DNA from: Sphingomonadales bacterium
Lineage (GTDB): Bacteria > Pseudomonadota > Alphaproteobacteria > Sphingomonadales > Sphingomonadaceae
Direction of reading: 5' to 3'
NCBI GenBank assembly: GCA_024636595.1
Contig: JAGXGT010000142.1
Span: 1 to 42,164 of the forward strand
Length of the DNA stretch: 42,164 bases
Below the pieces are notes generated by a model. That model saw only the letters and a program-made list of their open reading frames with translations, ran no database searches and was not told the DNA's origin. Below are positions 331-18,418 of the stretch, piece after piece. Positions within the stretch are counted from its first letter, which is position 1, and each line of letters opens with the position of its first letter. The translations under genes and the position numbers were made by a program.

Positions 331-405
331 GGCCCCTTCGTCTAAGGGTTAGGACGCGGCCCTTTCACGGCTGAAATACGGGTTCGAATCCCGTAGGGGT
401 CACCA
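331..405 (+). tRNA. tRNA-Glu (TTC anticodon), CCA encoded
   Basis: GGCCCCTTCGTCTAAGGGTTAGGACGCGGCCCTTTCACGGCTGAAATACGGGTTCGAATCCCGTAGGGGTCACCA; acceptor GGCCCCT/AGGGGTC, anticodon loop CTTTCAC, T-loop GGTTCGAATCC. Confidence 0.95.
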
Positions 406-1691: not shown

Positions 1692-2275
1692 CCAAAGCCA
1701 ATCCTGACCTCGGCAGCCTGGCCGAGAAGTTCATCGAACAGGGCATTTGGGACGCCGAACTGGTCGCTCGTCTCGACGATGCCGCAATCGATGAATTGTT
1801 TGAGCACCTCGTGGCGCACTCGGCCGTCGAAACGGCGGCGGCGACCGCCGACGTGGAGTCGGTGGTGCTGGACGACGAGCAGCAGGCTGCGATACTCAGC
1901 CTGCAGAGTTATTATCTCGGCGAAGTCGCGCGCCGTCCCGAAGCCGGGTCTGCCGAACAGCAATTGGCGCGCCCGTCGACATGGCTCGCGATCGAACCGG
2001 CAGTGCGCGACCGCGACTTCCTGATTCGGCTTCAGCAGCGCCGGCTGCACGGCCTCGGCCAGCGCTGCCTTCGCGACCTTGCCGATTTACTCGGTCAATC
2101 GCGCACCGCTGTGCGGGACTTTCTTGCCGGTCCGCCGGGCTATGGGCTGGCGACGGCCGAGAATCGCAACCGCGGCAAGCCGCAAGACGATGGCGTCGAG
2201 GAATTCGCCGCAGCGCTCGCCCGGTCCGAGGTCCCCGATGTCTTCAAACGACGATGGCAGGAAGACGAGCCATGA
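1688..2275 (+). CDS. Hypothetical protein of the operon, unknown function
   Basis: 195 aa ORF; ATGA overlaps with both neighbours (1688-1691 and 2272-2275). Confidence 0.7.
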   Translation: MTKANPDLGSLAEKFIEQGIWDAELVARLDDAAIDELFEHLVAHSAVETAAATADVESVVLDDEQQAAILSLQSYYLGEVARRPEAGSAEQQLARPSTWLAIEPAVRDRDFLIRLQQRRLHGLGQRCLRDLADLLGQSRTAVRDFLAGPPGYGLATAENRNRGKPQDDGVEEFAAALARSEVPDVFKRRWQEDEP

Positions 2276-5200
2276 CCGCATTCGATCTTGCGAGGCTGGC
2301 TGCACGACAGCTTCGCGGCGAGTATGTTTCGTTAGACGCCGATGGACCGACGGCGGTGGCGGCTGCGGCCGCTGCGCTTGGACTCAAGATTGAGCTGGTT
2401 CCACCCGGCGATGCATTGATCGGGACGAGCGATGCAAAGCTGCTGCGCGAATGGGATAGGATCTACGTCCGCAAGGACGTCTCGGACGCAGATGGAGCCG
2501 CCTTCGCTGCCCACGAGCTCGGTCATTTGCGACTTCATCGTCCGCAGGATGCCTGCACCGGGTCGGATCCCGACGCCCGCAGCTCGCGGGCTCTTGCCCG
2601 CGTCGATTCCTATGGACCACGGGAACGGCGTGAATTGCAGGCCAATGTCTTCGGCCGCGAGTTCCTCCTGCCGCGCGCGTTGGCCGAGCGCCTGTTCCTC
2701 AACGAACGCAAGAACGCTGCAGAGATTGCGGGCTTGCTCAAATTGCCGCCCGCCCTCGTTCGCCGGCAGTTGTTGGACAGTCTTCTAGGGCCAGACGTCG
2801 CAGAGCCCAAGAATGGCGGCGGCGGCGCTGCCAAGCCCGACCATAGCCAAATCGATGCCGCGCGGTTCGAGGGCCCCGCCCTGCTGCTTGAGGCTGGGCC
2901 GGGATCCGGCAAAACGCGCACTTTGATAATGCGGGTCGACCATCTCCTGACCACGCGCCGGGTCGCGCCCGATCAGATACTCGCTCTAACCTTCTCGAAC
3001 AAGGCGGCCGGCGAAATCGCCGAGCGGATCATGTTCGCCAACGCTGAGGCGGCGGCGGAGATGTGGACCGGAACCTTCCATGCGTTTGGTCTCGACCTCA
3101 TTCGGCGCTATTATGACCGGCTCGACCTTCCGGCCAGCGTGCAACTGATCGATCGCGCCCAGGCGATCGAATTGCTGGAGGATCGGCTGCCCCTGATGGG
3201 GCTAAAGCATTATCACGACCTGCGCTATCCGGAGCAGGCGTTGAGGACTATCCTCGGTGCGATCTCACGCGCCAAGGACGAGCTGGTCGATGCCGAGGAA
3301 TTCGGCCGACGCGCCGGCGATGCCTTTGCGGCGGCCAAGACAGCCGAGGAGATCGAGGCCGCCGAGCGCGCTTGCGAGGCGGCGCGGGTCTACGAGATCT
3401 ATACGGTCGCGCTTCGGGAAGCAGGCGCCGTAGACTTCGGCGACCTGGTGATGTTGCCGACCCGATTGCTGCTCGAAAATGAAGGCGTAAGGCAGCAGGT
3501 CGCCGCGCGGCACAGCCATGTGCTTGTCGACGAATATCAAGACGTCAATCGGGCCAGCGCCCGGTTGCTTATCGAGCTTCGCCGGGAGGGGTCGCAGCTT
3601 TGGGTGGTAGGCGACGCCCGGCAGTCGCTCTACCGGTGGCGCGGTGCGTCCTCCGCCAACATGGCCGGGTTTGAGGCCGACTTCCCGGGCGGCAAGCGAC
3701 TTCCGCTCGACCGCAATTATCGCTCGACCGACCATATCGTGACGCTCGGCAAGGTGTTCGCGCGCGACATGCGGGCCGGCCGCAACGGGCTTTCCTATAA
3801 TGCCGAAGCCGATCGCGAGGAGCAGGGGACGGCGACGCGGTTATTGGTCGGGCTCGACGACGCCTGCGAAGGCGAATTGCTCGCTCAAGAGATCATCCGC
3901 TTGCGTGAGGCCGGCGTGCCGCTCGGCGATCAGGTGGTGTTGGCGCCAACCAATGCCCGGCTCGACATCGCTGCCGATATCTTGGCGCGTCACGGTCTTG
4001 CCACCAGCCATCTAGGCTCTTTCTTCGAGCGCGAGGAGGTCCGCGATCTGTTCGCGGTGCTCGCATTACTGGCCGAAGCCAATGGCGGCGCTCTGGTGCG
4101 GGTCGCTGCGATGCGCGAGATCCGGGTCGGTGCCGCCGATGTCGGCGCGATCGTCCGACAAGCGCTCGATGAACGTGAGTCGGTAGTGTCGCTCCTCTGC
4201 CGCGCCTCCGGCATCGAGGGGATGAGCGCGAACGGTGCGGCGGCGCTCGAGCGGCTTGGCGCTCAGCTCGACGGCCTCACCCCGTACACACCGGCGTTCG
4301 ACGTGGCGGCGAGTTGGCTGATCGACCGATCCAACTATCTGCGCGACCTCGCCTCTGCGCCCGGCCCAGCCGGCGCTTCGGCCCGCGCGGCGATCCAAGC
4401 GCTCTTGACCTTCCTCGATCAGCGCGAGCTTGGCGGCCAGCCGCTCAGCCCGGCGCGTGCGCTGAAACGCATGCGCAACATCATGCTGCTGTCCGACGAT
4501 CGCGATCTCCGCAGCGTCACCTTGGGGAGAGATTCCGATGCAGTGCATCTGATGACCATCCATGGCGTAAAAGGCTTGGAATTTCCGGCCGTCCATGTCG
4601 TCGGACTGCACAAGAATTGCCTGCCCGGCATCTTCCGGCGCGACGCCAGCCCGCATCCGCCGGGTCTGATCGAGCCGGAAACGCGAGAAACCCATCTCGA
4701 GGAAGAGGAATGCCTTTTCTTCGTCGCTATCTCGCGGGCCGAAGATCATTTGCGACTCTACCATAGCGAGAAAGCCAATGTGCAGAAGCGGCAGCCCTCG
4801 CCCTTTCTGGCCCGGCTCGGGCCGCTCGAACGGCAGAATCTCGGCAGTCCAACCATCGCGATAAGTCCAGTGGCGCCGCCGCTCGCGCCGATCGCCACCG
4901 ACGCGATCAATCTGTTCGACATGCGCGACTACGAGAAGTGCCCGCTTAAGATCGCTTATCGCCGCTATTTCGGTATCCCTGGGCGGCGTCACGAGTCGCC
5001 GTTCCTGAAAACGTCGGGCGTTCTTTACCAACTGGTCGACCGGGTCGCTGAGGTCGCAGGGCCGGCTGTTGAGAGCGGGGTCGTCCAACTGCTCGACCAG
5101 ATCTGGAGCGATCGCGGCCCGGCGGATCATGGCCTTGCAGCCGATTATCGCGACCATGCCGGCCGCCAGGCGGCAACGCTCGCCCAGCTAGCCAACGGAT

Positions 5201-5607
5201 TCGATGCGGTTGATTTCAAGCGGATCGAACTGCCAATCTCAGGCGGGGCGATCCACATCGGCGCTCCTCTGGTGAAGCAGAGCGTGTCCGGAACCCAAAT
5301 CCGCTTTCTCGATGCGGGTAGGCGCCGATCGAAAAGCGGCAATGATGCCTCCGCAGGCCTGCTCTTGTCGGCAGCCCGCCTTGCATTTGGTGCGAACGCA
5401 GCTGTGTCGATTGGGCACGTAACCGGCGGCGATATCGTCCCGGTGACGCGCGATGCAGTCAAAAGCGCTGGCGATGTCGACGCCGCCGGGAGGGTCCTGG
5501 CGGCGATCAACAGCGGCATGCTGCCCCTGAAACCGACCGCCCATAATTGCGGGCGCTGCCCCTATTTCATCGGCTGTCCGGCGGTCGGCGCGCCGGAGCC
5601 CTGCTGA
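2272..5607 (+). CDS. ImmA/IrrE-like metallopeptidase domain fused to UvrD/Rep SF1 helicase with C-terminal RecB/AddB-like Fe-S region
   Basis: ATG at 2272; HELGH zinc-peptidase motif near N-terminus; Walker A GPGSGKT, TFHAFG, DEYQD Walker B, GDARQSLYRWRGA, VAISRAEDHLRLY helicase motifs; C-terminal EKCPLKIAYR ... NCGRCPYFIGCP four-cysteine pattern. Confidence 0.88.
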   Translation: MTAFDLARLAARQLRGEYVSLDADGPTAVAAAAAALGLKIELVPPGDALIGTSDAKLLREWDRIYVRKDVSDADGAAFAAHELGHLRLHRPQDACTGSDPDARSSRALARVDSYGPRERRELQANVFGREFLLPRALAERLFLNERKNAAEIAGLLKLPPALVRRQLLDSLLGPDVAEPKNGGGGAAKPDHSQIDAARFEGPALLLEAGPGSGKTRTLIMRVDHLLTTRRVAPDQILALTFSNKAAGEIAERIMFANAEAAAEMWTGTFHAFGLDLIRRYYDRLDLPASVQLIDRAQAIELLEDRLPLMGLKHYHDLRYPEQALRTILGAISRAKDELVDAEEFGRRAGDAFAAAKTAEEIEAAERACEAARVYEIYTVALREAGAVDFGDLVMLPTRLLLENEGVRQQVAARHSHVLVDEYQDVNRASARLLIELRREGSQLWVVGDARQSLYRWRGASSANMAGFEADFPGGKRLPLDRNYRSTDHIVTLGKVFARDMRAGRNGLSYNAEADREEQGTATRLLVGLDDACEGELLAQEIIRLREAGVPLGDQVVLAPTNARLDIAADILARHGLATSHLGSFFEREEVRDLFAVLALLAEANGGALVRVAAMREIRVGAADVGAIVRQALDERESVVSLLCRASGIEGMSANGAAALERLGAQLDGLTPYTPAFDVAASWLIDRSNYLRDLASAPGPAGASARAAIQALLTFLDQRELGGQPLSPARALKRMRNIMLLSDDRDLRSVTLGRDSDAVHLMTIHGVKGLEFPAVHVVGLHKNCLPGIFRRDASPHPPGLIEPETRETHLEEEECLFFVAISRAEDHLRLYHSEKANVQKRQPSPFLARLGPLERQNLGSPTIAISPVAPPLAPIATDAINLFDMRDYEKCPLKIAYRRYFGIPGRRHESPFLKTSGVLYQLVDRVAEVAGPAVESGVVQLLDQIWSDRGPADHGLAADYRDHAGRQAATLAQLANGFDAVDFKRIELPISGGAIHIGAPLVKQSVSGTQIRFLDAGRRRSKSGNDASAGLLLSAARLAFGANAAVSIGHVTGGDIVPVTRDAVKSAGDVDAAGRVLAAINSGMLPLKPTAHNCGRCPYFIGCPAVGAPEPC

Positions 5608-5644
5608 TCTTCGGATCAGACGAAATCCGGCGCTCAATTCGATG

Positions 5645-5686
5645 ACTCCGTATCCCTGGCAATTTCGCCGGGACCAAAGACGGAGT
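5645..5686 (+). promoter_or_regulatory. Strong hairpin overlapping the Shine-Dalgarno of the Ubl gene (candidate translational control element)
   Basis: ACTCCGT (5645-5651)/ACGGAGT (5680-5686) and inner TCCC-T-GGC/GCC-GGGA (5653-5673); GGAG at 5682-5685 lies about 10 nt before ATG 5696. Confidence 0.5.
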
Positions 5687-5695
5687 TTAAATCCC

Positions 5696-6157
5696 ATGCC
5701 CACCGATATCTTCATCAAGCGCAGCGGTAGCCTCGAGGTCCAGCACCGCAAGGTCGAGACGCTGGACTTTGCCGCCCTGCAGAAGGAGCTCAACAAGGCC
5801 TTCGGCGCCGGCTCGCTCTTTCTCGAGGACGAGGACGAGCCGCTGTCGCGCGACCGCCGCATCGACACCCCGAGCCTCTTCGTCCACCACAGCCGCTGCA
5901 AGCGGATTGAGGTCACCGTCCGCTATGCCGGCCGGACCTTCGAGCACAAGTTCGGACCCGGCACGACCCTCAAGACGATCAAGCGCCGGGCCGAGAAGAA
6001 GCTCGATATCGACGCCACCGACGCCGCCGAGCTCTCGCTCCAGATCGCCGGCACCAACGACCGGCCAGATGAGGCGACCCATGTCGGCTCGGTGTCCGAC
6101 CCGAGCACCTGCTCAGTGGTCTTCGACCTCGTTCCCTCCGACCGGATCAATGGCTGA
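5696..6157 (+). CDS. Probable tandem beta-grasp ubiquitin-like protein ending in Gly
   Basis: 153 aa from ATG 5696; second half RIEVTVRYAGRTFEHKFGPGTTLKTIKRRAEKKLDI...STCSVVFDLV has a Ubl-like beta-grasp pattern; C-terminus ...SDRING*; context with E2-like/JAB/E1 genes. Confidence 0.65.
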   Translation: MPTDIFIKRSGSLEVQHRKVETLDFAALQKELNKAFGAGSLFLEDEDEPLSRDRRIDTPSLFVHHSRCKRIEVTVRYAGRTFEHKFGPGTTLKTIKRRAEKKLDIDATDAAELSLQIAGTNDRPDEATHVGSVSDPSTCSVVFDLVPSDRING

Positions 6158-6611
6158 CATGACGCCCGATCGAGCCATGTTTGAGCGTGACCTTGCCGCG
6201 GCGACCTTCCTCGAGGGCGTCGCGCGCAAGCGCTGGACGTTCGTCACCGTTAGCTGGCCATTCGCGCTTTTTGCGATCATCGCTGGCGACGGGGAAATCT
6301 TCCACTTGCGGATGAACCTAGAGGGCTATCCTGCGGCGTTGCCGACCGGCGGGCTGTGGGATCTGGGGACCGATGCCATCCTCGGCGCGGATCGCTGGCC
6401 GAAAGGTGACGCCGCCTTCAGCAGCGTGTTCCGGCGCGACTGGCAAGGGGCGACGGCTCTCTATTTTCCGCTCGACCGGGTGGCGCTCAACGGCCACCAC
6501 GACTGGCCCTCCAATTACCCGCACCTCCGCTGGCACCAGGAAAAGGGCTTCGTCCAATATCTCGGCGAGGCTCATCGCCTGCTCAATTCGCGAGGCTACC
6601 ATGGCATCTGA
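6150..6611 (+). CDS. E2/UBC-like protein (prokaryotic E2 type), cysteine-free
   Basis: 153 aa from ATG 6150; E2-like features inferred from position between Ubl and JAB/E1 genes and the ...NYPHLRWHQEKGFVQYL... segment; overlaps Ubl stop. Confidence 0.55.
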   Translation: MADMTPDRAMFERDLAAATFLEGVARKRWTFVTVSWPFALFAIIAGDGEIFHLRMNLEGYPAALPTGGLWDLGTDAILGADRWPKGDAAFSSVFRRDWQGATALYFPLDRVALNGHHDWPSNYPHLRWHQEKGFVQYLGEAHRLLNSRGYHGI

Positions 6612-7092
6612 CGGCAAGCGTCTCCGCATCTCCTGGCTCTCATGGTGGCGGCTCGTGCGCCAGCTTCGTCGCCGCGGCGGCGGCCGGCGCGAGAGCGGCG
6701 CCTTTCTGCTCGGACGGCGTGACGAACAGGGCGGCGCGATTTCCGACTTCGTCTTCTACGACGACACCGACCCCGGCGCTTTGTTACGCGGCTATGTGCA
6801 TCTTGCCGGCACTGCCCTCAACAAGGTGTGGGAGCGCTGCGCAGAAACCGGCCTAGAGGTGCTGGCCGACGTGCATACCCATCCGGGCCGGGCCGACCAA
6901 AGCCCGTCCGACCAAGAGCACCCGATGGTCGCGATTAGGGGCCATATTGCGGTGATTATCCCCAACTTTGCCCGATCGACGCTGAACCTGCGCGGGGTCG
7001 GTGTCTACCGCCATTTGGGCGCCAGGAATTGGATCGTGCTGCCGGCACCGAAGCCCGGTTGGCGCGGCCTCACTTTAGAAGAGGACAAATAG
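6601..7092 (+). CDS. JAB/JAMM (Mov34/MPN/PAD-1) family peptidase
   Basis: 163 aa from ATG 6601; RRESGAFLLGRR (Glu), ADVHTHPGRADQSPSDQEHP (HxH and SxxD) JAMM residues. Confidence 0.85.
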   Translation: MASDGKRLRISWLSWWRLVRQLRRRGGGRRESGAFLLGRRDEQGGAISDFVFYDDTDPGALLRGYVHLAGTALNKVWERCAETGLEVLADVHTHPGRADQSPSDQEHPMVAIRGHIAVIIPNFARSTLNLRGVGVYRHLGARNWIVLPAPKPGWRGLTLEEDK

Positions 7093-7093
7093 A

Positions 7094-8455
7094 ATGAAGG
7101 AAGCTGACTTTGCCGCCTTTCTCGACAGCTTCAACCGGCTCGCCAAGCTGGATCTCGACCTTGGCAAGGCGGGCGACCCAGAAGCGGCCATGGCGCGGCT
7201 GCAGGGCTATGCCGTTCACATTCGTGTCGGTGCTGAAGTCGCAAGCAGCGCCGCGCATCAGATTGCCATACTGACGCTGGTCAACATCCTGTCGCGCTTC
7301 GCGCTCGGCGGCGTGACCCTGTCCGGCATGCTCGACGCACCGATGTTGGCGCCTTGGCCTGGTCGGACCCTGATGGCGGCGGTCGAGGGGCTTGGTGGCG
7401 CAGCTGGACAACCGGCCGATGATTGCCCCACCACCGTTGTGGGCACCGTCGACGACCTCGTCGACCGCACCGTCCAACTGACCTTTGAGGGATGGCGCGG
7501 AGGTATCGTCCCTGCAGGCGGCGCCCGGCTTGATGAGACAAAGGGGACGGCACTGTCCGCCGTGCTCGCGGCGGCGATCGGCGCGGCCGAGACCTTCGCC
7601 ATGCTGCGCGAAGAGGTCGACGCCGGCCGGCGCCTGCGGGGACTGTCGATCTGGAGGCCGGACGGTGATCAGGACTGGTTGTCGCCAGCAAGCGACGGGC
7701 CGCCGCTTCACCTTTTACCCACCCGGCTCTGGATCCTTGGGCTCGGCCATCTCGGACAGGCCTTTCTCTGGTCGCTCGCCATGTGCCCTTATGCTGATCG
7801 GGCCGAGGTGAGCCTGGTCCTTCAGGACATGGATGACATCACCCAATCAACGGCGAGTACCTCCATTCTGACTATGAAGGTGGCGCGCGGCCGAAAGACC
7901 CGCGACGTCGCCCGCACCTTGGAGGCGATGGGCTTCTCGACGGTGATCATCGAGCGGCCGTTTGACGACCAGTTCAAACGGCGACCGGAGGACCCATCGG
8001 TGCTGATTTGCGGCGTCGACAATGCCCATGCCCGCAGCCAGCTCGAAGGGCCCGGTTTTCCGCTCATCGTCGAGGCCGGGATCGGCCGGTCCGCTCAGGA
8101 CTTTCAAGCGATCCGGCTCCATACCTTCCCGTCTCGTCAAAAAGCGGCCAATCTCTGGAAGACAGAGATGATGGACGCGAAGGCAGCGGTCGCCGAAAGG
8201 CCAGGATATCAGCACCTGCGGGAGCGCGGCGTCGACGATTGCGGCTTGGCTCGGCTTGCGAGCACTGCGGTTGGCGCTCCTTTCGTCGGGACCGTGGCCG
8301 GCGTGCTGATGCTCGGTCAGATCCTGCGTTTGTTGCACGGCGACCAAGTAGATGCGGTGATCGACCTCGATCTTCGGGCACTTGATGCACGTCGGGCGGT
8401 ACCGAACGCCAATCCCTTCGCGCTCAATCCGGGGTTTCAGATTTGCGATGTCTGA
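7094..8455 (+). CDS. E1-like ThiF/MoeB/HesA family adenylating enzyme
   Basis: 453 aa; Rossmann motif LWILGLGHLGQAFLW, acidic LVLQDMDDI, CGVDNAHAR, and CGLARLASTAVGAPFVGTVAGV in the C-terminal half. Confidence 0.85.
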   Translation: MKEADFAAFLDSFNRLAKLDLDLGKAGDPEAAMARLQGYAVHIRVGAEVASSAAHQIAILTLVNILSRFALGGVTLSGMLDAPMLAPWPGRTLMAAVEGLGGAAGQPADDCPTTVVGTVDDLVDRTVQLTFEGWRGGIVPAGGARLDETKGTALSAVLAAAIGAAETFAMLREEVDAGRRLRGLSIWRPDGDQDWLSPASDGPPLHLLPTRLWILGLGHLGQAFLWSLAMCPYADRAEVSLVLQDMDDITQSTASTSILTMKVARGRKTRDVARTLEAMGFSTVIIERPFDDQFKRRPEDPSVLICGVDNAHARSQLEGPGFPLIVEAGIGRSAQDFQAIRLHTFPSRQKAANLWKTEMMDAKAAVAERPGYQHLRERGVDDCGLARLASTAVGAPFVGTVAGVLMLGQILRLLHGDQVDAVIDLDLRALDARRAVPNANPFALNPGFQICDV

Positions 8456-8512: not shown

Positions 8513-9463
8513 TCAATCCCGGATAAATAGGTGTCGCTTAAGGTCTCCCAGCTTCCCTTGGAGCGCGATCCGCTTGTCTATTACCTTTCTTGCCTCATTC
8601 TCCAGCAAAGGGATTCTCCGCCGCGCCTGTTCTGCCTCAGTCTCGGTTTTGTCAGAATTGAAGATTCCCCAGAACCTTTCAACCTTTGATACCACGGAAC
8701 TCATCTCATTAAGAGCTGTGCAGATCTTTTCGTGGTGTTGCGCGAGATCGGAACATTTTCGCTCCATGGCTTGCAAGTCTGGACCGGCCTCGTCGCGCTC
8801 TAACTGAAGTTCCCTTTTTGCCGTTTCGTCGAGAACAGGCTGAGGAAAGTCGGCGTTCACGATCTTGCGCAAACCGCCGAACGCGTCGATCCAATGGCAC
8901 TCCCGACTGTGCAGCCAACGCGCCAGTTCGAGCGATCGTTTGAATTTGGGGGCTAGTTCCACCACCTTCGCAGAGAATCTAGATGAACCCAACTCACGCC
9001 ACAGCTGACGAAGTTGCGGATTCTGATGAATCCCGCGATGCAATTGATCCCAGTGTTGAGATATCCTATTTTGAACGTCCTTCGATTGTCCAATATAGAC
9101 GTCATCGCCACCCCATATGGCGTAAATACCAATGGTATGTGTTGCACATATATTCGGAGTAGGAACCCGTTGCAGGTCCTGGGTGATCGTAATCTTGGCC
9201 GAGATCGACTGCCCGACAGGCTCGCCTATCTCAATCTCGTATGTGGCACCGGAATCTAGGAGCGGAGCGATGATCGCTGCGGTTCGCCTGTCGATGTGGC
9301 CGATCGTGTCCCCTTTTACGGTGACCGCGATTGCATTTGTGTCATGAGAGTTGTGCGGTTCGCGAGCAAGGGAAGGTCGCATGTGCAACAACCGAAGGGC
9401 TTCAGTCGGGGTGAAGCCATGGTATTTCATACCAACCACGTTAGCAGTGACGGTGGTCTTCAT
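8513..9463 (-). CDS. HIRAN domain fused to GIY-YIG nuclease domain
   Basis: N-terminal VVGMKYHGF...L.REPHNSHDTNAIAVTVKGDTIGHIDRRTAAIIAPLLD (HIRAN); THTIGIYAIWGGDDVYIGQSKDVQNRISQHW (GIY-YIG). Confidence 0.8.
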   Translation of the reverse strand: MKTTVTANVVGMKYHGFTPTEALRLLHMRPSLAREPHNSHDTNAIAVTVKGDTIGHIDRRTAAIIAPLLDSGATYEIEIGEPVGQSISAKITITQDLQRVPTPNICATHTIGIYAIWGGDDVYIGQSKDVQNRISQHWDQLHRGIHQNPQLRQLWRELGSSRFSAKVVELAPKFKRSLELARWLHSRECHWIDAFGGLRKIVNADFPQPVLDETAKRELQLERDEAGPDLQAMERKCSDLAQHHEKICTALNEMSSVVSKVERFWGIFNSDKTETEAEQARRRIPLLENEARKVIDKRIALQGKLGDLKRHLFIRD

Positions 9464-10146
9464 TGGCTGTCAGTCGGGCGGTAGGTCGCGACATCGGGAA
9501 ACACCTCAATTATGTGTTTGGAGAGCGCATGCCCCTTTCTCAAGCCCATCACGTGCAATGCTACCTGATAGGCTGCGTCCCAAGCTTCCCGGGTCGTTGG
9601 CCCCTTCATGGCCTCATCGTTGAGGAAATTCACCAGAACCAAGTAAGCTGGCACACCTTGCTCACGAAGAAAGTGTAGGTGGGCGATCCGATTGGCAAGC
9701 TGGTAGAAATGGTCTGTCCAAGGGGCTCTTGACACCCTTGCATCTAATCTCTCTGCGCAACTGACCAGCGCCCTATTGATTCGCTCACGTGAATCTGGTC
9801 GTGCGGCTGTTCCAGGTGAACACATTTCCGCGACATGGGCCTTCGCTTCAACCAACAGAACGTCGCCACGGTCAGAAACGCCCAGCGCATCCCATTGGGG
9901 GCCGCGCTCAGGCCAAAACTCCTTGAGAGCAGGTCGCAGGTGCGATAGCCCGACGCGGTCCAGAAAGTCGCCGTCTCGGTATTCGGCAAAATCGTCATGC
10001 TCCAGCGGCGACCGCCACTCTATCCGGTTCGATCCAGAAAGCTTCGCAAGGATCGGTTCGTCCAGCGAGGTCCAGTGATCGTTCACGGCCTGCTGGATCC
10101 ACAGTAAGCTTCCCTTGGTGCCGAGCGGTTGAACAACCCGCGTCAC
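9460..10146 (-). CDS. Putative PD-(D/E)XK superfamily nuclease
   Basis: 228 aa; PQWDALGVSDRGDVLLVEAKAHVAEM matches D-x(n)-ExK. Confidence 0.6.
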   Translation of the reverse strand: MTRVVQPLGTKGSLLWIQQAVNDHWTSLDEPILAKLSGSNRIEWRSPLEHDDFAEYRDGDFLDRVGLSHLRPALKEFWPERGPQWDALGVSDRGDVLLVEAKAHVAEMCSPGTAARPDSRERINRALVSCAERLDARVSRAPWTDHFYQLANRIAHLHFLREQGVPAYLVLVNFLNDEAMKGPTTREAWDAAYQVALHVMGLRKGHALSKHIIEVFPDVATYRPTDSQ

Positions 10147-10670
10147 AGGCCGGTGGCCAGAATGGGAGTGCTTGGGATCAATTGCGCGGAGCCGGGCTGT
10201 GGGTTCCCAAAATGTGCAGCCAGTTGAAGCGTGCGAAGCAGTGGTAGGCCGGATGGCACCGCCGCTCTTTCGGGGCGGTACTTTTTGAGATGGCTCGTGA
10301 TCTCGCAGATGAAGTCGGCCACGCGAACTACGCGCCCGCCGCCAACCTCGGTTCTCACCCCTCCTGCCATCAAGAAGAGGCCGACCTGATCCAGATCGCT
10401 GGGAAGATTGAGTCCATTGAAGAGGGACGGAACGAACCGACGTCCACGCTCAAATTTGGCAGAAAATCGAGCCTCTCGTTTCTGCCACGAATCCGCATCC
10501 AGTGAGCATTCTACATGGATTAGATGACCCGTCATTGGATTAACGGCTACGATGTCGAGTTCACCTTCGTAGCCGCCCTTTGCACGCGGTCCGACCAACA
10601 CCGACTGGCGCACAAAGTAACCGCGATACTCAAGCCACTCGGCGGTCAACTGCTCCAAATGATTGCTCAC
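10143..10670 (-). CDS. Putative restriction-endonuclease-like (PD-(D/E)XK fold) protein with atypical E-C-S
   Basis: 175 aa; GYEGELDIVAVNPMTGHLIHVECSLDADSW resembles the core but lacks the usual Lys after Glu; 4-nt overlap with the downstream nuclease gene. Confidence 0.55.
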   Translation of the reverse strand: MSNHLEQLTAEWLEYRGYFVRQSVLVGPRAKGGYEGELDIVAVNPMTGHLIHVECSLDADSWQKREARFSAKFERGRRFVPSLFNGLNLPSDLDQVGLFLMAGGVRTEVGGGRVVRVADFICEITSHLKKYRPERAAVPSGLPLLRTLQLAAHFGNPQPGSAQLIPSTPILATGL

Positions 10671-10771: not shown

Positions 10772-11146
10772 TCAACCTGTAATGGTAATCTCGATTTGCC
10801 TCGGGTCTACACCGAAGGTTGCGGCTAGCCCCGCCTTCGCCTCCGTAATTGTGAGCCGTGGAGCATCTCCGCCGCCCAATAATCGATCATCCTCGCCGTC
10901 GTCGCTACCGACATACACAAATGTCACTTTCTCGTTCTTTAAATCGAGATCGACCGCCTTCCATCCGGCAAGCTGCCAGCCGAGGCTCTGCGACCGCATC
11001 TGATTAGCCCACCATGCTTGATATGTTCTGGCGCTTGCTGGGAGCGGGACGCCGAGAACTTGCTCTACGTCCACAAAATCAGCTTCCCACCTTCCCTCAT
11101 CGAGGCCCGCTAGATGCTCAGAGAGCTTTCGGTATTTCTTACTCAT
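10772..11146 (-). CDS. DUF7662-like small protein
   Basis: 124 aa; KYRKLSEHL...FVDVEQVLGVPLPASARTYQAWWANQ...GWQLAGWKAV. Confidence 0.6.
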   Translation of the reverse strand: MSKKYRKLSEHLAGLDEGRWEADFVDVEQVLGVPLPASARTYQAWWANQMRSQSLGWQLAGWKAVDLDLKNEKVTFVYVGSDDGEDDRLLGGGDAPRLTITEAKAGLAATFGVDPRQIEITITG

Positions 11147-11195: not shown

Positions 11196-11330
11196 CTTTA
11201 AAAATGGGTATTCTATTGACCGAGATTCAGGCCAATATCTAAAAGTGCTTTCCAATGACGATAAGATGAAGTGGCAGCGTTCCGGCACTTAGTACGGCCT
11301 CAATCATCCACAAGTCATTGAAAAAAATGT

Positions 11331-11395
11331 TAGACGCTGAGGGGTTCGAACCCACAACCCGTTGATTAAGAGTCAGCTGGGCTACGGCACCTTTG
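11331..11395 (-). pseudogene. Degenerate tRNA-Lys(CTT)-like fragment (anticodon arm and T arm, D arm collapsed)
   Basis: Minus strand GTGCCGTAGCCCAGCTGACTCTTAATCAACGGGTTGTGGGTTCGAACCCCTCAGCGTCTAAC; acceptor ends do not pair and the D-loop is missing. Confidence 0.55.
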
Positions 11396-11541: not shown

Positions 11542-13185
11542 TCACCAATCAGAGACTTCCATCATTTGTTCTTTCCAAAAAACGGGCCCAAACGCAGTTT
11601 GACTAATCCTGCGCCGGGTCACGCTGGCAGCCTTGCTTCCATCCAGCACTTGCTCAACAAGCTCCGGCGGCAACCAACCAATACGAACCAGTTTTCCGAT
11701 CCATTGTGGCGTCTGTTCCTTTTCGGCTGCGATTTCAGCGATGGTTCGCCCACCGACTATCTGCTCACGCACCTCAAAAGCTTCGGCCAACAACAAGGAC
11801 AGCTTTTTATCAACATAGCCAGCGCCACCGCCGTCCCCAATCACCAACCTGGTCTCGCCTCCAGTTCGAATACGAACAGCGCTCATGTTGAGACATACAT
11901 CTGCCATCGCGTTACCCAGCTCTGTCTCAGTTTTCAATCTGATCTGAACTTTGTCAGTCGCCACAACAATACCATCCACCAATTCTCCAATTGCGGATTT
12001 TGTCATGAAGGCATCAACAGTGTCCAAGCGCGTCAAAAGTGATCGTCCCTGCAAGATGCAGAATGACAGATCCGTCGGATCAAAATACTGCCCGAGTTCT
12101 GCTGGACTGGTCAGGAACGTCCGCAACCGTTCGATCACGGCATTTTCCAGATCATGTGCCGGTATCCGGATGCGCGGCCTGTCGATTGTTACATTCTCTT
12201 CAGACCCGGTGACATAATAGCGATATCGCCTGTTACCCTTGGTCGCATGATTGGGAACAAGCCTGCGGCCATATTCATCGGTAAGAAGGCCGCCCAATAT
12301 CGAAGGTGATTTAGCCCGCAGACCCTGGTTTCCGCCATTGTCATTGTTTTCAAAGCGATCCTGAACATTCTGCCACAGTGCTTCATCGATTATCGCTTCA
12401 TGCTCACCGGGCCAGATTTTTTCCTTATGGACAATCTGTCCGCGATAAATGGCATTACGCAGCAGATGCTGGAGCCCGCCTCGCGTAAATGGCACCCCGC
12501 CAACGCTCTGGCCTGTTCGATATGTGCGCTGTTTGGTCTTTATGCCAAGCTCTTCGAGTTTCTCGATTGCCGCCGCCATCGAGCCACATTCCAGATATAC
12601 CTCGAATATGCGGGTGACGGTTTCGGCTTCTGCAGGCTCCACATAGAGCTTTCGGTCTTCCAATCGATATCCCAGAGGCACCGGTCCGCCCATCCACATG
12701 CCTTTCTTCTTGGATGCCGCGATCTTGTCGCGGATCCTCTCGGAAGTGACCTCTCGTTCAAACTGCGCGAAGGAGAGAAGCACATTCAGTGTTAAACGCC
12801 CCATGCTGGTGGTGGTGTTGAACGATTGGGTAACACTGACAAAGCTGGCATCAGCGGCATCCATGATATCCACAATCTTGGCGAAGTCGGCTAATGAACG
12901 GGTGAGGCGATCAACCTTGTAAACCACAATGATATCAATGCGCCCTGCCTTCACTTCGGCCATGAGCGCTGTCAATGCAGGCCTCTCCATATTGCCGCCG
13001 CTGAATCCTCCGTCATCGTATATGGTTTCATCCAGTGACCAGCCTTCATGGGTCTGGCTCATGACATAGGCGCGGCATGCCTCTCGCTGGGCATCCAGGC
13101 TGTTAAATTCCTGATCCAGACCCTCTTCGGTCGACTTGCGGGTATAGATTGCGCAGCGGCGGTTTTTTCTCGGCTCTTCCCTCAT
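11542..13185 (-). CDS. Large serine recombinase (resolvase N-terminal plus recombinase domain)
   Basis: RRCAIYTRKSTEEGLDQEFNSLDAQREACRAYV...YDDGGFSGGNMERPAL...VYKVDRLTRSLADF...FEREVTSERIRDKI. Confidence 0.95.
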   Translation of the reverse strand: MREEPRKNRRCAIYTRKSTEEGLDQEFNSLDAQREACRAYVMSQTHEGWSLDETIYDDGGFSGGNMERPALTALMAEVKAGRIDIIVVYKVDRLTRSLADFAKIVDIMDAADASFVSVTQSFNTTTSMGRLTLNVLLSFAQFEREVTSERIRDKIAASKKKGMWMGGPVPLGYRLEDRKLYVEPAEAETVTRIFEVYLECGSMAAAIEKLEELGIKTKQRTYRTGQSVGGVPFTRGGLQHLLRNAIYRGQIVHKEKIWPGEHEAIIDEALWQNVQDRFENNDNGGNQGLRAKSPSILGGLLTDEYGRRLVPNHATKGNRRYRYYVTGSEENVTIDRPRIRIPAHDLENAVIERLRTFLTSPAELGQYFDPTDLSFCILQGRSLLTRLDTVDAFMTKSAIGELVDGIVVATDKVQIRLKTETELGNAMADVCLNMSAVRIRTGGETRLVIGDGGGAGYVDKKLSLLLAEAFEVREQIVGGRTIAEIAAEKEQTPQWIGKLVRIGWLPPELVEQVLDGSKAASVTRRRISQTAFGPVFWKEQMMEVSDW

Positions 13186-13604
13186 GCCGCCGGCCTTCCG
13201 GTAAGGCCAAAGAACCGGGGGCCTGACCAGTGGGCCCCGGTGACCTCGCGGGCAATTTCGCTCAAGGATCGATAATGTTTGTCGCCTATCACAAAACCCT
13301 CGCCCGTCACCAGGACAACCAGTGTCCGGCCGTTCCAGCTGCGCACGAGGCGCGTACCGGGTTTAAGTTGATCAGGCGACCGAGGACCACCCCTGCCCTT
13401 CTTTACAAGCCTCCTGAGTTTGGCGATGCTCGCTGCTGACAAGCCGCCGATCACTTGCTCCTGCAATCTGTAAGCAATACCAAGACGCAGCATTCCCGAA
13501 CTGATATCCGGCGCTGGAGATCGATAGGCATGTTGCCATTCGACCCGCAGCTGCTTTTTTGGCATGGACTGCAACGACGCGATGCGTTGTTCAAGATTAT
13601 CCAT
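13182..13604 (-). CDS. DUF2924 family protein
   Basis: Start MDNLEQRIASL at 13604; WQHAYRSPAPDISSGMLRLGIAYRLQEQVIGGLS...PGTRLVRSWNGRTLVVLVTGEGFVIGDKHYRSLSEIAREVTG typical DUF2924; 4-nt overlap with recombinase. Confidence 0.85.
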   Translation of the reverse strand: MDNLEQRIASLQSMPKKQLRVEWQHAYRSPAPDISSGMLRLGIAYRLQEQVIGGLSAASIAKLRRLVKKGRGGPRSPDQLKPGTRLVRSWNGRTLVVLVTGEGFVIGDKHYRSLSEIAREVTGAHWSGPRFFGLTGRPAA

Positions 13605-13605
13605 A

Positions 13606-13845
13606 TCAGGCTGCCTCGATGCGATAAGTACGAGAGCCGCCTTCGGGTTTGTCGCTCGCAATTTCATAGCCGCGTTTTCGCAAGCCGGTGAGGGCGGCAC
13701 GAGCGCTATGCGGCTTCCAGGCGGTTGCCTTTGTGATATCCTCCAGGGTTGCACCCTGTTTGCGGGCGAGCATGGCAACCAGCTGGGCTGCTCGTGAACC
13801 TTTTTCCGGTTGTTCGATGGCGGTGGTCTGAGGTGTACTTGTCAT
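13606..13845 (-). CDS. DUF3489 family protein
   Basis: MTSTPQTTAIEQPEKGSRAAQLVAMLARKQGATLEDITKATAWKPHSARAALTGLRKRGYEIASDKPEGGSRTYRIEAA. Confidence 0.8.
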   Translation of the reverse strand: MTSTPQTTAIEQPEKGSRAAQLVAMLARKQGATLEDITKATAWKPHSARAALTGLRKRGYEIASDKPEGGSRTYRIEAA

Positions 13846-14070
13846 GAGTGGTTCCATTGTTGTCGGAGCCCAACATAATGCTGGCTTCCCACCACCCAAA
13901 GCCCTGAAACTCTCACGTTCAGGGCTGGTTGCGACCCTTTGGCCGCCTCCACTCACATGAACAGCAATGCTCACTTTTTTAACGAAGTCCATAAATAATT
14001 ATTCTATTTTGTAGCTTCATGCTAAATTTACAGGCGAATTATAGTATTCTCCGTTGCTGAAGGGACCCAC

Positions 14071-14769
14071 ATGCTAGTAGTTGGAAATGATATCATTGAT
14101 CGAGGACTACTGCTTGACGCAGATAAATCACATATAAGTAATGCGACTTACTATCTGACAATTGAAAAAATTATTTCAGGGGGTGACGACAAAGAAAAGT
14201 CTTCAGTTAAGATTGGACCGCGAGAGATTGTTTGGGTTGTTTCCAAAGAACGTTTCAACATTGACGACAATGATTGTATTGCGCTGGTCAGCCTAAAGAG
14301 CAGTCTTACAAAACAAGGATTGTTAGCCTTGGACACTGGTTTTGTTGATCCAGGGTTTGAGGGACCAATTGGTACGGTGCTGGTGAACTTTTCCGATAAC
14401 GATGTTTCTATTTCGAAGGGAGAGGAGTTTTTCCGAGTTATTTTCATTCCTCACGATAAACTGGATTCTGAGTTTACGAATCGTAATCAAGTGAAATTTA
14501 AATCGGTTGATGAGTACGCAAACATCCGGAAAAAGGAGATAGTACGCGACTACTCTCGAACATTTCTGAATATCGATTCAGTTGCGGAAGATGTTAAAAT
14601 TGAGATTATGAAAGACGCTACCGGCGAACTCAAAAAGGACCTCGTCATTTATTTGTGGAATCAATATTGGAAAATTATCATTCCTGGTTCAATCGTGTTG
14701 TTCCTTGGATTGAATGCTCTGCCCGACAACCTATTTGTTAAACTGGTGAAGCTATTTTTGCCCGCATAG
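14071..14769 (+). CDS. dCTP deaminase/dUTPase-fold protein with C-terminal transmembrane helix
   Basis: SSLTKQGLLALDTGFVDPGFEGPIGTVLVNFSDNDVSISKGEEFFRVIF core; C-terminal IIIPGSIVLFLGLNALP hydrophobic segment. Confidence 0.75.
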   Translation: MLVVGNDIIDRGLLLDADKSHISNATYYLTIEKIISGGDDKEKSSVKIGPREIVWVVSKERFNIDDNDCIALVSLKSSLTKQGLLALDTGFVDPGFEGPIGTVLVNFSDNDVSISKGEEFFRVIFIPHDKLDSEFTNRNQVKFKSVDEYANIRKKEIVRDYSRTFLNIDSVAEDVKIEIMKDATGELKKDLVIYLWNQYWKIIIPGSIVLFLGLNALPDNLFVKLVKLFLPA

Positions 14770-14775
14770 ACGTTT

Positions 14776-15273
14776 ATGGAAAAGGAATATGTGACAAACA
14801 TGATCGATATCCGAAAATTGATTGTCGAACCCGATAACTGGGATAAACGATTTATGGGCTTGGCTGATTTGATTTCAACGTGGAGTGAAGATCAAAGCAG
14901 AAAAGTTGGAGCTGTTATAGTAGGAAATGCGCACGAGATTCGTTCAACGGGATTTAATGGACTACCCAGAAAAATATCCGCCACGGATCAAAGACGTCAC
15001 TCGCGTGAAGAAGGAGAGAAATATCTCTGGTTCGAGCATGCAGAACGAAATGCGATATACAATGCTGCGCGCATGGGCGTACCAACGGACGGATGTACGA
15101 TTTACAGCAGTTTGTTCCCTTGCTCCGCCTGCGTAAGTGCCATTATTCAATGTGGTATAACAACTCTATGCACATTCGCTCCTCCGGATGACGATCAGCA
15201 ATTCGGAAGAAGTTTTGTTGTGGCTCTACAAATGGCAAAGGAATCCGGTCTGAAAATCAGAGTCTTCAGTTGA
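14776..15273 (+). CDS. Deoxycytidylate (dCMP)-type deaminase
   Basis: WSEDQSRKVGAVIVG..., EHAERNAIYNAARMG (HAE) and SSLFPCSACVSAIIQCGI (PCxxC) zinc motifs. Confidence 0.9.
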   Translation: MEKEYVTNMIDIRKLIVEPDNWDKRFMGLADLISTWSEDQSRKVGAVIVGNAHEIRSTGFNGLPRKISATDQRRHSREEGEKYLWFEHAERNAIYNAARMGVPTDGCTIYSSLFPCSACVSAIIQCGITTLCTFAPPDDDQQFGRSFVVALQMAKESGLKIRVFS

Positions 15274-15394
15274 TAGTAGTATCGATTTTTTAATAGAAAC
15301 ATAACAAGAACAAACTTGCGCTCTGGGAATCTTTATGCCATCGCGTCATATACGCACCCGGATCGTTCAGCGGTGCGCTCCGGGAGAAAATTAC

Positions 15395-16633
15395 ATGCTT
15401 CAAGAAACCCAGTCCTTTGTCCACGATTTCGAAAAATCAGGAATGGATCTGGAAGAAGCAGAGCAGGAACTGGGATATTCTTCCCGCCAGATAAAGCGCT
15501 TTCTTGCTGGCAAAAATGAGCCGCCCAAACTGGTGGCGGACCGGGTACGTCAAATTGCCCGCAGCAAAACACCCGGAAAGAAAGGCAAGCCTGCATTCCG
15601 GTTCATCGACCTTTTCGCAGGTATCGGCGGATTCAGACTTGGCTTTGAAGCAATTGGCGGAAAATGTGTGTTCACCAGCGAGTGGGACCGTTTTTCGCAA
15701 AAAACATATTTGCGAAACTTCCCTGATGGGGATGATCATATTTTTGCTGGCGACATCAAGCCTTATGGCGATGATCCGGCACTGGTCCCGGAGCATGAGG
15801 TTCTGCTTGCAGGCTTTCCATGCCAGCCATTTTCACTTGCCGGAGTTTCCAAAAAGAACTCGCTTGGACGCAAGCACGGATTTGATGACGAGAAACAGGG
15901 GAACCTGTTTTTCTACCTCGCGAACATCATCAAACACCACAAACCGGCGGTTTTTTTGCTGGAAAATGTCAAGAATCTCAGGAGCCATGACAAGGGCCGG
16001 ACATTTGAAGTCATACGCAGAACACTGGAGGAGGAACTGGGATATACTATCAGCTTCGAAACCATCAGTTCAGCGCCATTTGTCCCGCAGAAACGCGAAC
16101 GCATTTTCATTGCCGGTTTCAGGAAGGATACAGGTTTCAGTTTTGACGGGTTTATGAAAACCCTTCCCGAGCGCAGCGAATGGCCAACACTGGATGCTAT
16201 CATGCAGTCACACAACGAGATCGATAGCAAATATACGCTGACGCCTAACCTCTGGAAATATCTGCAGGCCTACAGGAAGAAGCATGAGGCCGCCGGAAAC
16301 GGGTTCGGGTTTACGGTCCACGGTCCGGATGATGTCGCGCGCACCCTGTCTGCCAGATATCACAAGGATGGTTCCGAGATTCTTATTGAACAGAAGGGTA
16401 CTCGCCCGAGACGCCTGACCCCGACCGAATGTGCTCGGCTTATGGGATTTGAAAACGAAACCCGAAAATGGGAGATCCCGGTATCGGATACGCAGGCCTA
16501 TCGCCAGTTCGGGAACGCAGTCGTAGTGCCGGTCGTGGAGGCGATCGCCAGATATATGGAGCCATCAATCCTCAAAGCGGTGGCGCAAGATCAGAAATCC
16601 CGCAAGGCCAGAAGTCAGGCGGTCCTTGCCTGA
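15395..16633 (+). CDS. DNA (cytosine-5) methyltransferase with N-terminal HTH-like segment
   Basis: FRFIDLFAGIGGFRLGFEAIGG, LLAGFPCQPFSLAG, FLLENVKNL, QKRERIFIAGF, RQFGNAVVVPVVEAIA; N-terminal MDLEEAEQELGYSSRQIKRFLAGKNEPP HTH-like. Confidence 0.95.
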   Translation: MLQETQSFVHDFEKSGMDLEEAEQELGYSSRQIKRFLAGKNEPPKLVADRVRQIARSKTPGKKGKPAFRFIDLFAGIGGFRLGFEAIGGKCVFTSEWDRFSQKTYLRNFPDGDDHIFAGDIKPYGDDPALVPEHEVLLAGFPCQPFSLAGVSKKNSLGRKHGFDDEKQGNLFFYLANIIKHHKPAVFLLENVKNLRSHDKGRTFEVIRRTLEEELGYTISFETISSAPFVPQKRERIFIAGFRKDTGFSFDGFMKTLPERSEWPTLDAIMQSHNEIDSKYTLTPNLWKYLQAYRKKHEAAGNGFGFTVHGPDDVARTLSARYHKDGSEILIEQKGTRPRRLTPTECARLMGFENETRKWEIPVSDTQAYRQFGNAVVVPVVEAIARYMEPSILKAVAQDQKSRKARSQAVLA

Positions 16634-17105
16634 TATTGTAAGCCCCGCAGTTCGAAGCCGCATGATGGCCGGAATCGGCGCAAAGAACACGAAACCGGAA
16701 CTTCTGATACGCAGCGGTCTTTTCAAACTCGGCTACCGATATCGCCTTCACGGCAAAAGCCTGCCCGGAAAACCGGATCTGGTTTTTGCATTCCGCAAGG
16801 CAGTGATATTCGTCAACGGATGCTTCTGGCACGGCCATGATTGCCATCTGTTCAAATGGCCCAAAAGCCGCGAACAATTCTGGCATGACAAGATCGCAAA
16901 CAATATCAGGCGTGATGGAAAAGTCCGCACAGAGCTTGCTGAGGCGGGTTGGCGCATTTGTGATGTCTGGGAATGTCAGATAAAAGGGAAAGAAAGATTG
17001 CCCCTGGAAACTGTGCTCTCCCGTTGCTCTGAATTTCTCGACGGCAACGCGTTAAGATTGTCAGTGGGCGGTGACGAGACTGTGTGCATTTCCGAAGAAG
17101 AATAA
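16626..17105 (+). CDS. vsr: Very short patch repair endonuclease (Vsr)
   Basis: TTG start; SPAVRSRMMAGIGAKNTKPELLIRSGLFKLGYRYRLHGKSLPGKPDLVFAFRKAVIFVNGCFWHGHDCHLFKWPKSREQFWHDKI. Confidence 0.95.
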   Translation: MPDIVSPAVRSRMMAGIGAKNTKPELLIRSGLFKLGYRYRLHGKSLPGKPDLVFAFRKAVIFVNGCFWHGHDCHLFKWPKSREQFWHDKIANNIRRDGKVRTELAEAGWRICDVWECQIKGKERLPLETVLSRCSEFLDGNALRLSVGGDETVCISEEE

Positions 17106-18418
17106 AGAACGCGCATGGCCTCGGGCAAGTCACGTGCATTGATTCGCCACTGGGGCCTTACCTTTGCTTTTCCGTCTGAATATATCGTGTGAGCCGGGTC
17201 ATGAAACACCAGTCCGCTGTCGATTGCACGCAAAAGTTTCCAGACGTCCGTACCTGATCCTGTTACCCAGTCAGAGGCATAGCGATAGTCCTTCACGCCG
17301 CCACCGCCATCCCGGTTTTCAAATTTGAGATAGAGGGCGTTGGCATGCTTCGCGTTCCAGCAGTTAGCCATTTTTTCGACAGACCAGCCGGCCACTACCT
17401 CGCCTTTTCCCGGATCGAAAAGTTCAACGCCGATATCAGCGATGTCACCGAAACTGTCATTGACCCGGTCATAGCCAGCCACACGTAAAACAAAGCCCGT
17501 CTTTGCGTTTGATTTTCCGGAGCGATAGAGGCCGGTGAACCTCAGGGAACCATCGTCTTTTTGTCCGGGCAGGCCATATTGCTCCATAAATTCCCGGAAG
17601 GTATGAAGACCCTGATAGCCATAATCCGGGACCGGCGTCATCAAGCTGATCCTGCTCCCCGAGTAGCCCTTAATCTCGTAGCCATGCTTATCAGGCTTTT
17701 TATCACCGTTTGCCGCGACGCCGAGCAGGGCTTCCAGCGTGTATCCCCCGCCCTGTGATCCCTTGAACGGTTCAATTGTATCGCCTTTCTTGATCCGTGA
17801 ACTGTACCAGCCTCCTGAGACAATAGCCTCGATCTCCTGCCTGATGAGTTCAGCAGGGTCCTTACCCGCTTGTCCGTCAATCGAGAGAATATGTAGGACG
17901 CCTCGTCCCCCGGCGAGCGGCAGATCCGGAAAGTTCGCAACGAGCGGGTCATTCTGCTCCGTGAGAACCAGGCCCACAACCTTGCCATCCCTGGCGGTTC
18001 CCATGACCAGAATACGCCTGCCATATTCTGCCTGATGATCCCGGCGAAGTGCATCGGGAGGTTCATCGCAGCCGTTCAGAAAACCTGACATTCGCACTTC
18101 AGGGTACTGGAAATAGTCGATGATCGTCGTACCGGGAGCATCATGGCGATTGCCATTCGAGCTTAGCCAGGCAAAATCGAGCCGAGCCTCCAGTTTGGGC
18201 TTTCCGGTTTTTGATCTTCGCTTTGTCGTGCTTTCAGAAGGCGAACGGGCATGTATGGTAGCGGGAAAGATATTGGTGACACCATCCAGCCCGCCGCCCA
18301 GATATATCTGGTTTTTCTCGTTGTCCTGCCTTTCGGACAGATGCTTTACCCAGGCCGTGCGAACGCCCTGCCCTTCCAGGAGCACCTTGAGCTGTTCGAT
18401 TGTTATAATTCCTGACAT
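16976..18418 (-). CDS. MvaI/BcnI-like type II restriction endonuclease with long N-terminal extension
   Basis: 480 aa; YTLEALLGVAANGDKKPDKHGYEIKGYSGSRISLMTP core; convergent with vsr next to a C5 MTase. Confidence 0.75.
   Translation of the reverse strand: MSGIITIEQLKVLLEGQGVRTAWVKHLSERQDNEKNQIYLGGGLDGVTNIFPATIHARSPSESTTKRRSKTGKPKLEARLDFAWLSSNGNRHDAPGTTIIDYFQYPEVRMSGFLNGCDEPPDALRRDHQAEYGRRILVMGTARDGKVVGLVLTEQNDPLVANFPDLPLAGGRGVLHILSIDGQAGKDPAELIRQEIEAIVSGGWYSSRIKKGDTIEPFKGSQGGGYTLEALLGVAANGDKKPDKHGYEIKGYSGSRISLMTPVPDYGYQGLHTFREFMEQYGLPGQKDDGSLRFTGLYRSGKSNAKTGFVLRVAGYDRVNDSFGDIADIGVELFDPGKGEVVAGWSVEKMANCWNAKHANALYLKFENRDGGGGVKDYRYASDWVTGSGTDVWKLLRAIDSGLVFHDPAHTIYSDGKAKVRPQWRINARDLPEAMRVLYSSSEMHTVSSPPTDNLNALPSRNSEQRESTVSRGNLSFPFI

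Follow-up and report, generated by a model that had tools for sequence, protein, structure and literature searches.

Nucleases of the GIY-YIG superfamily have been described in defence with additional domains attached. CMoRE is a single-component GIY-YIG type IV restriction enzyme (PMC12923530), and SNIPE / PD-lambda-1 is a membrane-bound anti-phage GIY-YIG nuclease with added parts, which associates with the tape measure protein of the phage (PMC13190303). The HIRAN domain is found in HLTF/Rad5 and in bacterial HIRAN-HipA-diDNase clusters (PMC11706625). In HLTF, Y72 and Y93 stack on the bound dinucleotide (PMC4666394), and an N90A-N91A mutant disables the domain (PMC11237066). Prokaryotic HIRAN domains were called uncharacterised in a 2024 paper (PMC11090510).

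The window analysed here is the whole 42,164-nt stretch of contig JAGXGT010000142.1 (assembly GCA_024636595.1, a Sphingomonadales bacterium), and it carries three adjacent minus-strand genes whose products bring several of these parts together. Like CMoRE, protein 1 joins a defence-type GIY-YIG nuclease to a second domain that might sense special DNA; unlike CMoRE, which has an N-terminal GIY-YIG domain and a C-terminal modified-cytosine sensor and acts alone, it carries its HIRAN domain at the N-terminus. It resembles SNIPE in the nuclease type, although only HIRAN and GIY-YIG are present in Pfam terms, and it shares the HIRAN domain with HLTF/Rad5 and the HipA-diDNase clusters but has neither an SNF2 motor nor a RING domain, with HIRAN fused to GIY-YIG instead. 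The BilABCD operon in the same island (bacterial ubiquitin-like conjugation defence) is complete and genuine by PADLOC profiles; it is a separate, convergent operon on the opposite strand, and triplet membership is unsupported, as none of proteins 1–3 matches a Bil profile in PADLOC and BilA–D are the neighbouring plus-strand genes. An earlier note on this DNA had recognised no named defence system in the combination, and none was found here. We think it probable, with considerable room for doubt, that the trio is real, selected and probably co-transcribed nuclease-family cargo, modular in nature, with separate histories and assembled locally, and that no conserved three-part system is involved.

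Table. Annotated features of the window. The first, second and third genes of the operon encode proteins 3, 2 and 1, respectively.
Feature	Coordinates	Strand	Description or evidence
tRNA-Glu	331..405	+	Left island boundary; similarity to many genus relatives ends at its 3' end
UvrD-like helicase with N-terminal ImmA/IrrE (M78) peptidase domain	1981..5607	+	Pfam; just upstream of BilA
BilA, BilB, BilC, BilD	5642..8455	+	PADLOC E 1e-42, 2e-50, 1.6e-57, 4e-146
Protein 1 gene, third in operon	8513..9463	-	316 aa; HIRAN, GIY-YIG and charged tail
Protein 2 gene, second in operon	9460..10146	-	228 aa; canonical motif D86...E100-A-K102
Protein 3 gene, first in operon	10143..10670	-	175 aa; PD-(D/E)XK-like, ELD-x14-ECS, without ExK lysine
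DUF7662 protein	10772..11146	-	Pfam E 2e-13
Large serine recombinase, DUF2924 and DUF3489 module	11542..13992	-	Pfam
DCD/dUTPase-like, dCMP deaminase-like, C5 cytosine methylase (+), MvaI/BcnI restriction enzyme (-)	14071..18418		Pfam

Each of the two junctions within the trio is a 4-nt overlap, as had been noted before: GGCCTGTGACGCG (GTGA, 10143-10146) and GCCAATGAAG (ATGA, 9460-9463). Since homologues of all three proteins begin at the same residues (MSNHLE/MSNFLE for protein 3, MTRVVQP/MSRVSQP for protein 2 and MKTTV/MQHYK for protein 1), these overlaps do not depend on an arbitrary choice of start codon. Two such overlaps in succession favour co-transcription, which is probable, and would likely mean co-expression and hence some joint advantage. 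A scan for promoters and terminators returned sites no more numerous than in shuffled sequence. The DUF7662 gene lies on the same strand, 101 nt upstream of the protein 3 gene, and is a possible fourth member of the transcript; no link between DUF7662 and proteins 1–3 was seen in other loci.

The island in which these genes sit is rich in defence functions. To the right of the recombinase module, the genes at 14071-18418 may represent a defence based on nucleotide depletion, next to a restriction-modification pair, and the segment 18400-20400 is essentially missing from all relatives (one 43-nt match). Beside the serine recombinase, at ~11330-11395 on the minus strand, lies a fragment resembling the 3' half of a tRNA-Lys(CTT), called by neither ARAGORN nor Rfam, which is a possible attachment-site remnant. 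As the island is defence-rich, an anti-mobile-element role is the simplest guess at what the three genes do, and the cargo probably serves in this way, presumably against phages among others.

The fusion of HIRAN to GIY-YIG that had been read from the sequence of protein 1 is borne out by Pfam, by matches in the PDB and by the catalytic residues. Residues 5-76 match the HIRAN profile (E 4e-13; 49.3 bits, above the curated cut-off of 24.7) and also the HIRAN chains of human HLTF in the PDB (E 7e-4). In the alignment with HLTF, where residue numbers were obtained by counting along the alignment, Y72, N91 and H110 are kept as Y14, N38 and H56, and Y93 is replaced by H40. The GIY-YIG domain spans residues 112-203, with a Pfam match at 112-157 that falls 0.7 bit short of the cut-off (E 2e-4; 21.9 bits against 22.6) and a match to I-TevI chains in the PDB (E 0.002). 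GIY112, YIG123, R133, E188 and N203, which we take to be the standard GIY-YIG active site, are all present, so that both motifs and the catalytic arginine and glutamate place the protein in the superfamily. No credible Pfam match lies outside these two domains, and the last ~110 residues form a charged, probably helical tail.

The same domain order occurs in a protein encoded on a Vibrio plasmid (L012), so the fusion is no quirk of this contig. That Vibrio protein (L012:4899-6308) has an additional C-terminal region of ~240 residues. In the phylum sample of 279 genomes, matches to protein 1 in 29 genomes besides the window's own cover a HIRAN or a GIY-YIG segment, and none clearly covers both, with a single interrupted HIRAN match barely passing the domain boundary; the fusion is therefore rare. 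Elsewhere in the class sample (338 genomes) only partial matches were obtained, and a literature search returned no paper on a HIRAN-GIY-YIG protein.

Protein 2 carries the D...EAK motif that the sequence had suggested. W-D86...VE100-A-K102 is found in all four aligned sequences, in which D86, E100 and K102 of the PD-(D/E)XK motif are invariant and W-D86-A and a YQ..NR block are also kept. The homologues are at 58% (L004), 35% (L005) and 28% (L010) identity, and searches of Pfam, NCBIfam, PADLOC and PHROGs returned no family. A model built from a two-sequence alignment (pLDDT 63) puts D86 immediately ahead of a strand (87-91) and E100-K102 where the adjacent strand (96-101) ends, with helices following, an arrangement that is in keeping with a PD-(D/E)XK core without amounting to proof. 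Comparison of this model with PDB structures by Foldseek gave no match below E 0.001; the restriction enzyme BstEII ranked fifth with a probability of 0.25 and was not taken as evidence.

For protein 3, the described ELD...VECS site with its missing lysine corresponds to E37-L-D39 and V-E54-C-S56. Homologues at three loci (L006, L007 and L008, the last on a small Acinetobacter plasmid) have HIEPS or HYEPS where the window has ECS. Thus ECS or EPS replaces ExK in all four sequences, leaving the catalytic triad incomplete within a family motif of ELD...H-x-E-x-S, and D58, W62, R65-E66 and K72-F73 are invariant. The Azospirillum ramasamyi copy is interrupted by a TAA codon, yet retains the same ELD...H-x-E-x-S site. 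Judged from these sequences, the missing lysine is a family trait, and this family-wide loss rules out a sequencing error. Migration of the lysine is known in the PD-(D/E)XK superfamily, and K72 is a candidate for such a migrated residue. The only Pfam match was a sub-threshold one to UPF0102 (E 0.16), the model folded without an alignment was unusable (pLDDT 39), and profile searches of the PDB with proteins 2 and 3 returned nothing relevant. The fold predictions for both proteins are accordingly too weak to confirm a PD-(D/E)XK fold.

The genes show clear signs of selection. Between the window and L004, the protein 2 gene differs at 153 third, 77 first and 65 second codon positions, with synonymous sites saturated and the protein still 58% identical. 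Protein 3 compared with L006 has the same pattern, with saturated synonymous sites and 50% protein identity. Saturation at these levels of identity indicates that both genes are under purifying selection.

From the overlaps, the earlier note had concluded that the three genes form a single functional unit, a proposal staked on the triplet recurring elsewhere. In 72,556 plasmids, 50,697 phages and ~650 distinct whole genomes, the collections to which the rarity of the triplet applies, neither a second triplet nor another locus in which two of the genes are neighbours was found; the source MAG is 67% complete and relatives are few. A pattern scan of 85,462 genomes, which reaches close relatives of protein 2 alone, returned L004 only. 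In the class sample, protein 2 occurs in a single genome besides the window's, and protein 3 in the window's alone; in the phylum sample, both are confined to the window's genome. The plasmid and phage collections add only the homologue loci named here.

Each gene instead has homologues in settings that lack the other two. A protein 2 homologue stands alone among metabolic genes in G153, has WYL genes and genes of the PADLOC defence candidate PDC-M09 nearby on an Azospirillum plasmid (L005), and survives as decayed remnants in a genus relative (L018, G029:C28:12366-12616). In L004 it follows an HNH nuclease gene (L004:5272-6741) that ends 6 nt upstream, another tight nuclease pairing in the protein 2 family. 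In L006 and L007, protein 3 homologues come after DUF6035 genes, with large AAA/RNaseH genes further upstream, and in L008 they occur with TIR genes. The Vibrio HIRAN-GIY-YIG gene is without proteins 2 and 3 in the 10.5 kb read. A single record, NZ_CP029830, holds both proteins 2 and 3, where they are ~78 kb apart with one of them interrupted, and protein 1 is absent. The whole genomes of L004, G153 and G029 contain neither protein 3 nor a HIRAN-GIY-YIG protein; in G153 there is a single interrupted match, to GIY-YIG only, on another contig. Taken as a whole, the domain assignments of the earlier note stood and the island context is defence-like, but the claim of one unit is not supported.

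That claim still defines the strongest alternative, in which the three genes make up a single anti-phage system of three components, specific to this lineage, with proteins 3 and 2 forming a heteromeric pair of one catalytic and one structural PD-(D/E)XK member and the HIRAN-GIY-YIG protein targeting the complex to DNA ends or forks. The tight overlaps, the canonical and lysine-less PD-(D/E)XK-like proteins side by side, and the Bil and restriction genes nearby speak in its favour. Against it, besides the missing second triplet or adjacent pair, 4-nt overlaps are common on this contig (25558/25561, 30725/30728 and 35105/35108, between unrelated metabolic genes, and 13182/13185). Because these identical overlaps join pairs such as FAS1_DH/MaoC, glyoxalase/POR and SDR/thiolase, as well as recombinase/DUF2924, those of the triplet do not imply joint function. 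In addition, protein 3 has the ECS/EPS site even at loci with no protein 2 or with protein 2 far away, which argues that the loss of lysine is no adaptation to pairing with protein 2. We regard a three-component system as unlikely, and its specific form as a rare three-nuclease defence, in which HIRAN brings a GIY-YIG nickase, together with a paired PD-(D/E)XK complex, to replicating phage DNA at its 3' ends or forks, as a shade more doubtful. With homologues so distant (28-58% identity) and relatives few, their separate occurrence would nevertheless be compatible with the trio working together.

Less probable again is that protein 1 restricts foreign DNA by itself, proteins 2 and 3 being passengers with no connection to it. 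CMoRE (PMC12923530) and SNIPE (PMC13190303) set a precedent for GIY-YIG-based defence and the HIRAN-GIY-YIG gene occurs alone on the Vibrio plasmid, but protein 1 does not have the CMoRE layout, and among PADLOC defence profiles it matches only weak homing-endonuclease and candidate profiles, leaving the known defence GIY-YIG families otherwise unmatched. That the genes serve the mobile element itself, through end processing, recombination or homing, and not defence is suggested by a GIY-YIG domain closest to I-TevI-type homing enzymes and by the serine recombinase module 0.9 kb from the triplet, but is very improbable given that the relatives of proteins 2 and 3 show no association with recombinase modules and that the neighbours are mostly defence genes.

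Under the favoured reading of modular, locally assembled cargo, the HIRAN domain of protein 1 would bind a 3'-ended single strand or a fork junction, structures expected when phage or plasmid DNA replicates or enters the cell, and the GIY-YIG domain would nick near the bound site. Protein 2 would act as a separate metal-dependent PD-(D/E)XK nuclease against foreign DNA. Protein 3 retains ELD and a glutamate but has serine at the lysine position; it would either still be an enzyme, with its lysine moved to K72, or serve as a DNA-binding partner without catalysis.

Should the three genes work jointly, they would constitute a set of anti-phage nucleases guided by a HIRAN domain that binds DNA ends, and this would provide a testable role for prokaryotic HIRAN domains. 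If they do not, the locus still yields one HIRAN-GIY-YIG fusion and two small families of uncharacterised nuclease-like proteins.
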